Of a DNA stretch of 34,144 nucleotides, positions 19,418-24,875 are shown in pieces (within the stretch, counting starts at the first letter, position 1; every line of letters begins with the position of its first letter). The notes beneath the pieces are model-generated. The model was not told where the DNA came from. It searched no databases and saw nothing but the letters and a program-made list of their open reading frames with translations. This DNA comes from Verrucomicrobiota bacterium. GTDB lineage: Bacteria > Verrucomicrobiota > Verrucomicrobiia > Limisphaerales > AAA164-E04. Location: contig JAQCFT010000010.1 of the NCBI GenBank assembly GCA_027619545.1, positions 1 through 34,144 of the forward strand, read 5' to 3'. The position numbers were made by a program, and so were the translations under genes.

Positions 19418-19433
19418 GAATCATTCATGATTC
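19418..19433. repeat. Short palindrome at the convergent gene ends
   Basis: GAATCAT (19418-19424) and ATGATTC (19427-19433) are perfect inverted copies separated by 2 nt, overlapping the stop of the minus-strand gene. It sits in the 114-bp gap between convergent genes, so it may help end transcription, but no T-run follows. Confidence 0.3.
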
Positions 19434-21183
19434 ACCTTTCACTATTTAAATTCAAAAGGTAGATCATGCCTTCATAGCCCACCACGTAGATGTTTCCTGC
19501 CCGATCTTTGCCGAAAGATGCAATGCCCTGGGGAGAGATGGCAATTTGCTTCACACTTTCAAGTTCGCGATCGGTTTGCCGGATGGCCCAGATGCGGCGG
19601 GATGTGTAGTCGCCACAGATATACATTCCGTAATAGGAGGATTGTTTGTCCCCTCGATAAACATAACCGCCGGTGATGGAATTGCCATACTTGCGCTGAT
19701 ATGCAAAGACTGGTGAAATGTAGGTTTCTTCGTCTCGGCGATATTGATCTGAGAACGTATCATATCCTTCCATCACGTTCCATCCGTGATTTTCGCCCGG
19801 TCGCACAATGGCCACTTCCTCCACTTTGTCTTGGCCGACATCACCCACCCACAGGTCTCCTGTCACAGAGTCGAAACTGAATCGCCACGGTTCACGAAAA
19901 CCGATTGCCCAGATCTCCGGGAGGACGTTTTTCCGGTTCAGATACGGATTGTCCGGGGGAATCGTGTAGGGAAGGTCGCCCGTCCGACTGTCGACATCGA
20001 TTCTCATGATCTTGCCGAGGCGTGTGCCGGGATCCTGGCCGTGACCCAGCGGGTCACGTTGAGGACCGGTGTCACCCATGCCGATGTAAAGGTAACCGTC
20101 CGGTCCGAATTGAATGCATCCTCCCGTGTGATTCTGTGTGGAACTTCCCATTTGGATCAATCGACGCGAAGGATTACCAGAATCCGATTTGAAATCAGGT
20201 GCAGCCTCCTTTTCCACCACAATCGTGACGATGTTGTCCGCTTCGTATACCTGGTGCTTCAGATAATACTTTCGGTTCTCGCTAAAGTTTGGGTGAAAGG
20301 TCAGTCCCAATAATCCATTGGGACCGCGTTCATTGAAAAGCTCATCGGAAAAATCTGCGAACAAGATTTTAGAATCGCCTTCCTTTTTCTTTTCAAGCAG
20401 CCACAATTCACCTGATTGGCTTGCAACCAAAAAATGATTTTTCATCCCGGGCATCTCTTCAAACCAGGTCAAGCCAAAGCGAACATCGCCGGGGTTTTTT
20501 ATCATGGCATGGGCAAACTTTAGATCCTCACTGATGAATGGCTCGAGTGTCACCGGGTTCGGAAGGACAGGGATTTCGTTGGGCATGCCATTTCGAGTCA
20601 ATTGATTATCTTCAGTGATTTTCAATGTCGTCAGATAGGTGATCAAATCGCTGAACTCATCGAGTGTCAGTCCTGTGTGAAGCCCTTCGGGCATGAGGCT
20701 GATATTGCTGGTGTGTCGACGGGTGATTTCCGAATGGCGGAATGTTAGACTTTTTCCGTAAGCTCGTAGCAATGTTGTCGTGTCTGCGGACATGTCTTTC
20801 AAGGTTCCAGTGTGTTCTACACCGTTTCGGGTTGTCAGGGTGACACTGGCAAACCCGATTGCGATGAACGCTGAAGGTTCCAGAACTGCGTGAATGATGT
20901 CACCTTTGGAATAGGTGTTCCCAATATCCATCAGGTCTGGCCCTGCTAGCATCCCGGTTCCATCAATCGTATGGCATTGTGAACAAGCAAGTCGTTCTTT
21001 GGAGTGGAAAAGGATCTTCCCTTTCTCTGCGCTTCCGTTTAGTTCAAGTGCATGTGCTTCGTAGTCATCTTTGGTGACCCGAGCGGGTGCTTCCATGGCG
21101 TCTCCATGACAGATCGGTAAGGAGGCGATCAAGAGCTTTGCCAGTATCAGTGAACAAAATGGAGGTCGATGGGTGCCATTCAT
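19432..21183 (-). CDS. Haem-domain / glucose-sorbosone-dehydrogenase-like (GSDH) exported fusion protein
   Basis: A 583-residue protein with a signal peptide (~10-27). The N-terminal part (~45-195) is a cytochrome-c-like haem-binding domain of the type common in this phylum: ACSQCH with Cys67, Cys70 and His71, GPDLMDIGNTYSKGDIIHAV, then LMPEGLHTGLTLDEFSDLI supplying a likely Met ligand. The remainder is a GSDH propeller (PF07995): NGLLGLTFHPNFSENRKYYL, SSTQNHTGGCIQFGPDGYLY, GMGDTGPQRDPLGHGQDPGT, GFREPWRFSFD, DVGQDKVEEV. Related soluble dehydrogenases use PQQ and oxidise sugars; here the fused haem domain could accept the electrons. Haem-first order is opposite to many fusions. The substrate cannot be read from sequence. 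Confidence 0.85.
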   Translation of the reverse strand: MNGTHRPPFCSLILAKLLIASLPICHGDAMEAPARVTKDDYEAHALELNGSAEKGKILFHSKERLACSQCHTIDGTGMLAGPDLMDIGNTYSKGDIIHAVLEPSAFIAIGFASVTLTTRNGVEHTGTLKDMSADTTTLLRAYGKSLTFRHSEITRRHTSNISLMPEGLHTGLTLDEFSDLITYLTTLKITEDNQLTRNGMPNEIPVLPNPVTLEPFISEDLKFAHAMIKNPGDVRFGLTWFEEMPGMKNHFLVASQSGELWLLEKKKEGDSKILFADFSDELFNERGPNGLLGLTFHPNFSENRKYYLKHQVYEADNIVTIVVEKEAAPDFKSDSGNPSRRLIQMGSSTQNHTGGCIQFGPDGYLYIGMGDTGPQRDPLGHGQDPGTRLGKIMRIDVDSRTGDLPYTIPPDNPYLNRKNVLPEIWAIGFREPWRFSFDSVTGDLWVGDVGQDKVEEVAIVRPGENHGWNVMEGYDTFSDQYRRDEETYISPVFAYQRKYGNSITGGYVYRGDKQSSYYGMYICGDYTSRRIWAIRQTDRELESVKQIAISPQGIASFGKDRAGNIYVVGYEGMIYLLNLNSER

Positions 21184-21748: not shown

Positions 21749-22615
21749 TTAGGGGATTTTTTCCAATTGCTCGATCAGTGTTTCCGGGCGGACGCGCACA
21801 CGCCAATTTTCGGGCAGAACCCTCCATGCGATGTTTCCTTCGCGATCCAGCACGAAGGTGGCTGGCCTGGCGATGTCCTGATCGCCCATTGGATGGGCGC
21901 TGACATGCTTCAGTCCGAAGGCCTCGATCGCTTTACCATTCAAATCGGAGAGTAATTGGAATCCAAACCGCTGTTTGGTGGCCAGTTTTCGATTGTCCTC
22001 CACGGAATCGACACTGATGGCTAACACTTCGGCGTCCAAGGCTCTGATATCTTCAATGCGTGACTGCAAACCTTGCAGTTCTGATACACAGAATGGTCAC
22101 CAATAGCCCCGATAAAACGTAATGATCAATTTCTTTCCATTGAAGTCCGACGGACTGACCGGATTGCCTTTCTGATCGTTCAAAGTAAATTCGGGGACGA
22201 CATTCAGGCTTTCAGTGATCTCGGTGGGGGCTGGGACTTGATACGAAATGTGAACGATGTAACCGCTGAAAAGACTGGACAGGAACAGAGAGAATGCCAG
22301 GGAAACGGTCCCCAATATCTTACCTCGGTAAATGTTCGATTTGAAAAAGGCGCGCCACGTTCCCAGGCATGACACGCATGTGCCTATCAACACCAGTGGG
22401 AGATTGATAACAGGTGTGTCACGCAGGTCCGGGTAACGAACAAAAAAAGTAAAATAGCTGACCGCACCCACAAAAACAATCAACGGCCCAAGCCAGATGG
22501 CATGGTTGCGCTTTTGTGCGGGCATCGGCTGATCGGCGGCTTTCACTATGGAGTCATCAGCACTCATGGCGCCTATGTTTGTCACGCTTTGACGAAAAAA
22601 CAATGTCCAATTCAT
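21749..22615 (-). CDS. Membrane-anchored redoxin (AhpC/TSA-like) with an in-frame UGA at the active-site Cys: probable selenoprotein
   Basis: One continuous reading frame of 288 codons broken only by TGA at 22097-22099. Residues before it: a cytoplasmic start, three hydrophobic segments (~40-60, ~68-90, ~100-120), then a thioredoxin-fold beginning (PEFTLNDQKGNPVSPSDFNG, KKLIITFYRGYW). The TGA is codon 173, followed by PFCVSELQGLQSRIEDIRAL, LAISVDSVEDNRKLA, HVSAHPMGDQDIARPATFVL and EQLEKIP. Peroxiredoxin/redoxin relatives read FYRGxWCPFC at this point, so the TGA replaces the peroxidatic cysteine, giving UxxC. A SECIS-like hairpin follows. Everything downstream remains coherent, against simple decay. 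ATG 22615 is the longest start; ATG 22567 (MSADDSIVKA) is equally plausible. Substrate is probably a peroxide or disulfide at the outer face of the membrane. The alternative is a nonsense mutation. Confidence 0.75.
22059..22090 (-). promoter_or_regulatory. Candidate bacterial SECIS element
   Basis: In the mRNA the bases after the UGA include a perfect 7-bp stem, ACTGCAA paired with TTGCAGT (genomic 22079-22073 and 22069-22063), closed by a GGU loop at 22072-22070. The first loop G is 25 nt after the UGA. Bacterial SECIS elements are stem-loops just downstream of the Sec codon, with a conserved apical G (often GGU-like) about 16-37 nt away. A lower stem UGUG (22090-22087) with CACG (22062-22059) can extend it across an internal loop. 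Confidence 0.65.
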
Positions 22616-22670: not shown

Positions 22671-24875
22671 TTAAACCGAGTCAAAACGTGCGGCCAGGCT
22701 CAGGCGGTGTTTGAGTCCTGAGTGCCGGTGGGCGTTTTTGGCATTGCGTACGGCCATGGCGAGAGCCTTTTTTTGACCGATGAGCAGGACGAGCTTTTTG
22801 CCACGGGTGACTCCGGTGTAGATGAGATTGCGTTGAAGCAGCATGTATTGCTGAGTTGCAACAGGGATAATGACGATCGGGAATTCCGAGCCCTGCGATT
22901 TGTGGATGGTGATGGCATATGCCAGTGAAAGTTCGTCCAGTTCACCGAAATCATAGACGATCTGTCTGTGGTCGAACTGGACTGTGACTTCCTTTTCCAT
23001 CCCATCGATTTTCAGGATGTGTCCGATGTCACCGTTGTAGACTTCCTTATCGTAGTTGTTCTCGGTTTGGATGACCTTGTCCTTCACTCGGAATTGCCAG
23101 CCGAATTTTTCGACATAGGCGTCTCCTTGTTTCATCGGGTTCAAGGTGTTTTGCAAGGTTAGATTGAGATCGCGTACACCCAGGCTGCCTCGATTCATCG
23201 GGCAAAGCACCTGAATGTCCCGGATGGGGTCCACTTTGAATTTGGCCGGAATGCGGTCCCGAATCATCTGCACCAGTGTGGATGCTATTTTCTCCGGTTC
23301 TTCACGTTCGATGAAAAAGAAGTCATTTGACGGTTCATCTTCTTCCGTGAGGGGGAGTTGGCCGTGATTGATCCGGTGTGCGTTGGTGATGATGTGGCTT
23401 CCGGATGCCTGTCGGAAGATTTCCTTCAGGCGAACCACGTGGGTGAGCCCGCAGTCAATCAGGTTTTTGAGCACGGAACCAGGCCCAACAGATGGAAGCT
23501 GATCCACGTCGCCTACGAGGAGCAGATGCGCCTCCCGGGGCAGGGCTCTGAGGAGGTGATGCATCAAAGGGATGTCCACCATGGAGCATTCGTCGACAAC
23601 CAGAAGTTGTGTCTCCAGCGGTGATTGTTCGTTGTGTTTAAATCTTCCGGTGCGTGGATTGACCTCCAATAACCGATGGATGGTTTTTGACGGGAAACCG
23701 GTGGACTCGGACATGCGTTTGGCGGCTCGCCCTGTCGGTGCGCAAAGCAAGAAGGAGACCTGTTTGGCATGCAGGATTTTCAGGATGGATCGAATGATCG
23801 TTGTTTTACCGACACCCGGCCCACCTGTAATAATGATCAGACGATGTTCCAGTGCATTCCGAATTGCCAGCATTTGAGAGGCGGCCAATTGGATTTGAGA
23901 TCGTTCCTGAATCCATTCAATGGCCTTGTCGATGTCGATCGGTGGATAGTGTGCTCTTTGTGCAGCGATGGAACCGATGCGTTGGGCGATGGTTTCTTCG
24001 GCTTGCTTGAGAGCGGGAAGAAATATCAGATCGGTTTCATCAATGCATTCCTTTTCAACATCCCGGGCATTCAAGGATTGTTGCAGGCCATGTCGGACGA
24101 TGTCTTCGCTCACTTGCAGCAGTTCGGTGCTGTGCAGGACCAGCATGTCTTCCGGTAGCGCGCAATGTCCGTTGGAAGTGGCCTCGATCAGGACATGGTT
24201 CAATCCGGCCTGTGCGCGGTGCATGGAGTCTTCAGGGATGCCCAGTTTGCGGGCGATTTGATCGGCGCTTTTGAATCCGATGCCTCGAATGTCTTTTGCC
24301 AGGATGTAAGGATTGGCCTGGATTTTTTCGATCGCTTCCTCGCCGTAGGTTTTGTAGATGCGAACCGCGCGACTGGTGCTGACGCCGTTTGAGTGGAGGA
24401 AAACCATGATTTCCCGAACCATCTTCTGCTCTTGCCAAGCGTCTTTGATCTTTCGACGCCGACCCGGACCGATGCCGTCGATTGTTTCCAGTTTAGCGGA
24501 GGCGGTGTCGATGATGTCGAAGATCGTGTCGCCAAATTTGGCTACCATTTTTTTGGCGTAAACCGGGCCGATCCCTTTGATCATCCCGCTGGCGAGGTAC
24601 TTCTCGATTCCCTCAATGTTGGTCGGCGGTGTGCAGACCAGGTTGTCCGCTTTGAATTGAAGGCCATGATCACGATCGCGTGTCCAAACTCCTTCGGCTT
24701 TGACCCATTCACCCGCATTAGCTGAAACCGATTTACCGACCAGGCTAAGCAGGTCACGACGGCCTTTGACTTTGATGCGTAGCACGACGAATCCGGATTC
24801 CTCATTGAAGTAGGTGACACGTTCAATGAGGCCGGAAAGACTTTCCTTTTTCTGACTGGAACGGCCTTGGGTCAT
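22671..24875 (-). CDS. recD2: RecD2-type ATP-dependent DNA helicase
   Basis: A 734-residue superfamily 1B helicase. The N-terminal OB-like domain (~10-85) and tandem helix-hairpin-helix stretch (MIKGIGPVYAKKMVAKFG, IDGIGPGRRRKIKDAW) are features of RecD2 rather than RecBCD RecD. The motor motifs are in order: Walker A GGPGVGKTTIIRSIL (~350), Walker B VDECSMVD, LLVGDVDQLPSVGPGSVL (motif III), a UvrD_C_2 region with SLAYAITIHKSQGSEFPIVI (motif V) and LIYTGVTRGKKLVLLIG (motif VI). Length matches the family (~730-750). RecD2 is a 5'-3' helicase working in DNA repair and fork processing in the cytoplasm. It is a housekeeping gene among accessory exported genes, with the redoxin gene following about 55 nt downstream on the same strand. 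Confidence 0.93.
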   Translation of the reverse strand: MTQGRSSQKKESLSGLIERVTYFNEESGFVVLRIKVKGRRDLLSLVGKSVSANAGEWVKAEGVWTRDRDHGLQFKADNLVCTPPTNIEGIEKYLASGMIKGIGPVYAKKMVAKFGDTIFDIIDTASAKLETIDGIGPGRRRKIKDAWQEQKMVREIMVFLHSNGVSTSRAVRIYKTYGEEAIEKIQANPYILAKDIRGIGFKSADQIARKLGIPEDSMHRAQAGLNHVLIEATSNGHCALPEDMLVLHSTELLQVSEDIVRHGLQQSLNARDVEKECIDETDLIFLPALKQAEETIAQRIGSIAAQRAHYPPIDIDKAIEWIQERSQIQLAASQMLAIRNALEHRLIIITGGPGVGKTTIIRSILKILHAKQVSFLLCAPTGRAAKRMSESTGFPSKTIHRLLEVNPRTGRFKHNEQSPLETQLLVVDECSMVDIPLMHHLLRALPREAHLLLVGDVDQLPSVGPGSVLKNLIDCGLTHVVRLKEIFRQASGSHIITNAHRINHGQLPLTEEDEPSNDFFFIEREEPEKIASTLVQMIRDRIPAKFKVDPIRDIQVLCPMNRGSLGVRDLNLTLQNTLNPMKQGDAYVEKFGWQFRVKDKVIQTENNYDKEVYNGDIGHILKIDGMEKEVTVQFDHRQIVYDFGELDELSLAYAITIHKSQGSEFPIVIIPVATQQYMLLQRNLIYTGVTRGKKLVLLIGQKKALAMAVRNAKNAHRHSGLKHRLSLAARFDSV

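Follow-up and report, generated by a model that had tools for sequence, protein, structure and literature searches.

A Prx-like gene with an in-frame UGA was found in the genome of a Verrucomicrobiota bacterium. The hairpin that follows this codon is, with high confidence, a genuine bacterial SECIS (bSECIS) element through which selenocysteine (Sec) is inserted into a Prx-like oxidoreductase of the UxxC type that is probably anchored in the membrane. The analyzed stretch of DNA, herein referred to as the window, is 34,144 nucleotides long. The following features were assigned in it, in order of translation:

21749..22615, minus strand: Prx-like gene of the AhpC/TSA fold with one UGA read through (288 aa)
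22247..22501, minus strand: N-terminal part with three helices at residues ~39-56, ~71-92, and ~96-123 (AlphaFold2 model)
21752..22201, minus strand: thioredoxin/AhpC-TSA-fold domain with U173 and C176 (PF00578, Foldseek, AlphaFold2)
22097..22099, minus strand: in-frame TGA, predicted selenocysteine-173, motif W-U-P-F-C (UxxC); the same codon is TGA in 18 of 18 full-length genes
22063..22079, minus strand: predicted SECIS hairpin with 5' arm ACTGCAA (22079-22073), loop GGT (22072-22070), and 3' arm TTGCAGT (22069-22063)

The minus-strand open reading frame (ORF) running to 22097 encodes 172 aa. The frame is open on either side of the TGA at 22099-22097 and continues beyond it as far as a TAA at 21751-21749. 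Standard ORF calling splits the gene in two (22097-22615 and 21749-22069), which would conceal the encoded redox protein together with the need for selenium. The read-through product matches PF00578 at residues 139-264 (106.8 bits). The focal protein has the AhpC/TSA domain with a UxxC active site (motif FYRGYW-U-PFC) by which Prx-like UxxC selenoproteins are recognized. The Met start of one relative (L025) aligns with Met17 of the focal protein (position 22567), and this residue is the probable true start, giving a product of ~272 aa. In the proposed mechanism, SelB carrying Sec-tRNA(Sec) would bind the GGU-loop hairpin, located in the mRNA 24 nt downstream from the UGA, and would deliver selenocysteine to the ribosome at this codon. 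The product would be a membrane-anchored AhpC/TSA-fold protein of 288 residues (about 272 from Met17) with the redox pair U173-P-F-C176. Its probable role is that of a thiol/selenol oxidoreductase or a peroxidase, working on the outer side of the inner membrane.

For bacterial SECIS elements, the published limits are 16-37 nt between the UGA and the apical loop, a loop size of 3-9, a stem of 4-16 bp, and a minimum free energy (MFE) of -7.5 kcal/mol or lower (PMC13188914). The focal hairpin is located in coding sequence and lies within these limits for spacing (24 nt between the UGA and the first loop base), loop (GGU), and stem (7 bp). A sequence-only reading of this DNA had placed a perfect 7-bp ACTGCAA/TTGCAGT stem with a GGU loop inside 22059-22099, at the distance expected after a Sec codon. 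The perfect helix was confirmed at 22079-22063, the spacing agrees with the published range, and folding gave a stable apical loop within the 16-37 nt window; the same helix is present in the ensemble centroid. The hairpin shares with the bSECIS model (E. coli fdhF type, bSECISearch consensus) its location in the coding sequence just after the UGA, a 3-nt loop beginning with G, and a 7-bp stem. The isolated stem differs from the model in its MFE of -6.4 kcal/mol, which is weaker than the -7.5 limit; this limit is reached only when adjoining structure is included. With flanks, the MFE is -7.1 (32 nt), -10.1 (45 nt after the UGA), and -11.5 kcal/mol (58 nt). No Rfam family match was found in scans of the window and of positions 21900-22200.

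By itself, the single hairpin is only marginally beyond chance and is weak evidence. The folding z-scores against dinucleotide shuffles were only -0.99 (76 nt) and -0.26 (58 nt), and the folding energy by itself was discarded as an argument for a SECIS element. When the window was scanned with the published limits, an equally stable model-type hairpin was found after 55 of 1382 TGA triplets (4%). Synonymous recoding of the peptide ELQGLQ matches the stability of the focal hairpin in 6.5% of draws (p = 0.065), and recodings in the focal subgroup reach the hairpin stability in 2-9% of draws. Such matches arise because Leu-Gln...Leu-Gln codons readily form an inverted repeat. The earlier statement that the perfect inverted repeat, lying as it does within a coding region, provides independent support for Sec insertion was therefore too strong, since neither the folding nor the recoding statistics are significant for the single hairpin. 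These same values, the recoding p of 0.065 and the 4% of window TGAs, are what favours the explanation that the TGA arose by nonsense mutation (pseudogene) or sequencing error and that the hairpin is due to a coincidence of the LQGLQ codons.

Homologues were collected by profile and sequence searches over overlapping samples of 116, 320, 387, and 384 genomes. In total, the full-length family comprises 18 genes in 17 genomes, the focal gene included. The Sec codon is TGA in all 18 genes, and Cys was found at this codon in none of the full-length genes from these overlapping samples. The relatives from part of the survey share 35-60% identity with the focal protein. Genomes outside the order are among those with this TGA in a full-length gene. 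The reading frame downstream of the TGA is preserved. A nonsense mutation or sequencing error is thus extremely improbable, and is effectively refuted, because the UGA and the frame downstream of it are conserved in many species; codon-level conservation within the hairpin, described below, also stands against it. Shorter relatives have TGA as well, most of them in the motif RSADW-U-x-x-C. Two further candidates, L133 and L134, were not counted among the UGA homologues because the W-U-x-x-C motif is absent from both. Distant homologues have at the aligned position either Cys (CxxC) or Thr/Ser (PrxQ/Bcp type, TxxC). A contig scan by back-translated pattern gave one Cys relative only, partly because the active-site pattern had Cys for the UGA.

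Comparison with homologues lifts the hairpin far above chance. The presence of hairpins in other UGA genes had been proposed as a check, and a model-type hairpin within the published bSECIS limits was found in every UGA gene of the scanned set (32/32; 16 full-length and 16 short genes). Two additional genes, L142 and L143, also have one. A hairpin of -4.5 kcal/mol or lower was found in 30 of 30 distinct UGA sequences vs. 7 of 28 Cys/Thr homologues (Fisher p 3.5e-10, with a cut-off chosen after the weakest UGA hairpin, -4.7, had been seen). Comparison of the stabilities without a cut-off gave a Mann-Whitney p of 7e-7; both p values overstate independence because the sequences are related. In the first control set, a stable hairpin was found in one of eight close CxxC homologues. 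This homologue (L023 5001-5456, from a Pyrinomonadaceae MAG) has Cys and a strong SECIS-like hairpin, GCAGCT-GGCGG-AGCTGC, which may mark a Sec-to-Cys change of recent date or be a coincidence of GC-rich sequence.

Three types of hairpins were found in the UGA genes. The first, focal type is ACUGCAA-GGU-UUGCAGU with its variants, located 24 nt after the UGA in 9 genes. The second type, AACUCCG-AGUUG-CGGAGUU and variants at 16 nt, belongs to a second full-length branch, whose members are L030, L031, L032, L099, L104, L136, L137, L142, and L143. In L032, L136, and L137, the MFE fold is an alternative 11-bp hairpin with a CCG loop, and either this or the AGTTG hairpin may be the fold recognized by SelB. 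The third type, GCAGUU-AGUUG-AACUGC and variants at 20-21 nt, was found in the short relatives.

Codon usage within the hairpins was compared as mean pairwise codon identity at residues invariant within each group. The focal subgroup has values of 0.82 within the hairpin and 0.41 outside it (p 2.7e-4). The corresponding values are 0.96 and 0.55 in the second subgroup (p 1.1e-4), and 0.62 and 0.38 in the short UGA relatives (p 0.013). Judged from these alignments, the codon conservation in the hairpin is a constraint beyond the protein. The sequence-only reading had also suggested that synonymous covariation would support the stem. This was borne out strongly in the short UGA relatives, in which 4 of 7 pairs vary in both of their bases, with a covariation score that was reached by none of 500 shuffles. 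In the focal subgroup, such a double change was seen at the closing pair only, where A-U has become G-C in L106 through two silent substitutions; here, the score was reached by 64 of 500 shuffles.

These data also bear on the explanation that the UGA does encode Sec but that the hairpin is conserved merely with the peptide ELQGLQ, the working SECIS element being another fold in this region. The peptide favours self-complementary codons, as seen in the 2-9% of matching recodings in the focal subgroup, and in L029 the overall MFE fold differs from the model-type hairpin. However, the Leu codon CTG in the hairpin is fixed in 9 of 9 genes, and CAA..TTG is changed to CAG..CTG in L106, whereas six-fold degenerate residues elsewhere in the gene have a codon identity of 0.27. 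UGA subgroups with different peptides have hairpins too, and this explanation is very unlikely. Taken with the conserved UGA in 18 of 18 full-length genes and the hairpins in 32 of 32 UGA genes, the codon conservation in the hairpin supports a SECIS element and Sec insertion, the reading originally preferred to a nonsense mutation.

Genes for Sec synthesis and decoding were found in part. The selA (464 bits) and selB (302 bits) genes are adjacent on contig C218 of the same genome. Neither tRNA-Sec nor selD over the cut-off was found in this assembly, which is 88.7% complete and consists of 515 contigs. The best match to RF01852 in the genome, and the sole one above the cut-off, was rejected as a tRNA-Sec because it is a tRNA-Ser. 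A single match from a pattern search for tRNA-Sec was also rejected, as it does not look like a tRNA, and no tRNA-Sec was found by ARAGORN in the window or on the selA/selB contig. In three genomes of the same genus (G002, G003, and G004), both a tRNA-Sec with the anticodon TCA and SelD over the cut-off were found. The SelD genes of same-genus and other relatives (L082-L089) have their own in-frame TGA, and SelD is itself probably a selenoprotein in these genomes.

Among the 116 relatives, selA was found in 12 of the 15 genomes that have a UGA gene among the matches listed vs. 31 of the 101 without one (Fisher p 3.8e-4; counts compiled by hand). The genomes with UGA genes and without a selA match (G009, G064, and G079) are all incomplete, fragmentary assemblies. 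One of them, G009, has UGA-type Prx genes (L029 and L130) and is without selA, selD over the cut-off, or a tRNA-Sec match; an incomplete assembly, a clustered loss in a gap, or mis-binning may account for this. The missing tRNA-Sec and selD in the focal assembly would fit the explanation that the UGA is recoded as another amino acid, by a suppressor tRNA or an altered code, or is read through without a SECIS element. This explanation is nevertheless hardly credible, given the selA and selB genes in the same genome, the co-occurrence of UGA genes with selA, the SECIS-type hairpin in each UGA gene that was scanned, and the Cys that some of the more distant homologues have at this position.

The AlphaFold2 model of the focal protein has a mean pLDDT of 81 and shows a thioredoxin-fold domain preceded by three long helices at the N terminus. 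The helices are hydrophobic in sequence and are probably transmembrane, anchoring the thioredoxin-fold domain. The positive-inside rule suggests that the catalytic domain is periplasmic, because positive residues are located between helices 2 and 3. The closest folds are those of PrxQ/Bcp, AhpE, and ResA/TlpA (Foldseek target-normalised TM about 0.8-0.87), which were also found as PDB sequence matches. In the alignment with 2cx3, U173 stands at the Ser/Thr position within the TxxC motif of Prx, and C176 at that of the conserved Cys. All NCBIfam models scored below their own cut-offs on the focal protein.

Prx-like thiol:disulfide oxidoreductase selenoproteins with a PF00578 domain and a UxxC motif have already been described in Geobacter, the Sargasso Sea, and others (PMC1088965, PMC13188914, PMC1794560). 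The focal protein shares with them the PF00578 domain and UxxC in place of TxxU. The mechanism is likely ordinary, well-known Sec decoding, and the protein a relative of this described kind. Compared with the described proteins by domain and motif, the focal protein may differ in its N-terminal three-helix, probably membrane, anchor, and in the full-length family only the UGA form was found. The family would add a full-length, apparently Sec-only branch to the PF00578 selenoproteins. The chances are about even that it represents a membrane-anchored, Sec-only Prx-like family of this bacterial class for which no Cys form was found and which no named family model covers, and that two unrelated SECIS elements (GGU, 24 nt; AGUUG, 16 nt) serve its sister branches. 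If so, the Sec codon would have been retained in the course of descent although its SECIS element was exchanged or moved, and two SECIS types on one Sec codon would offer a case for studying the replacement of coding-region SECIS elements.

No obvious redox operon partner was found among the genes flanking the focal gene, which encode a RecD2-like helicase (22671-24875, minus strand) and a glucose/sorbosone dehydrogenase that also matches cytochrome c (19432-21183, minus strand).
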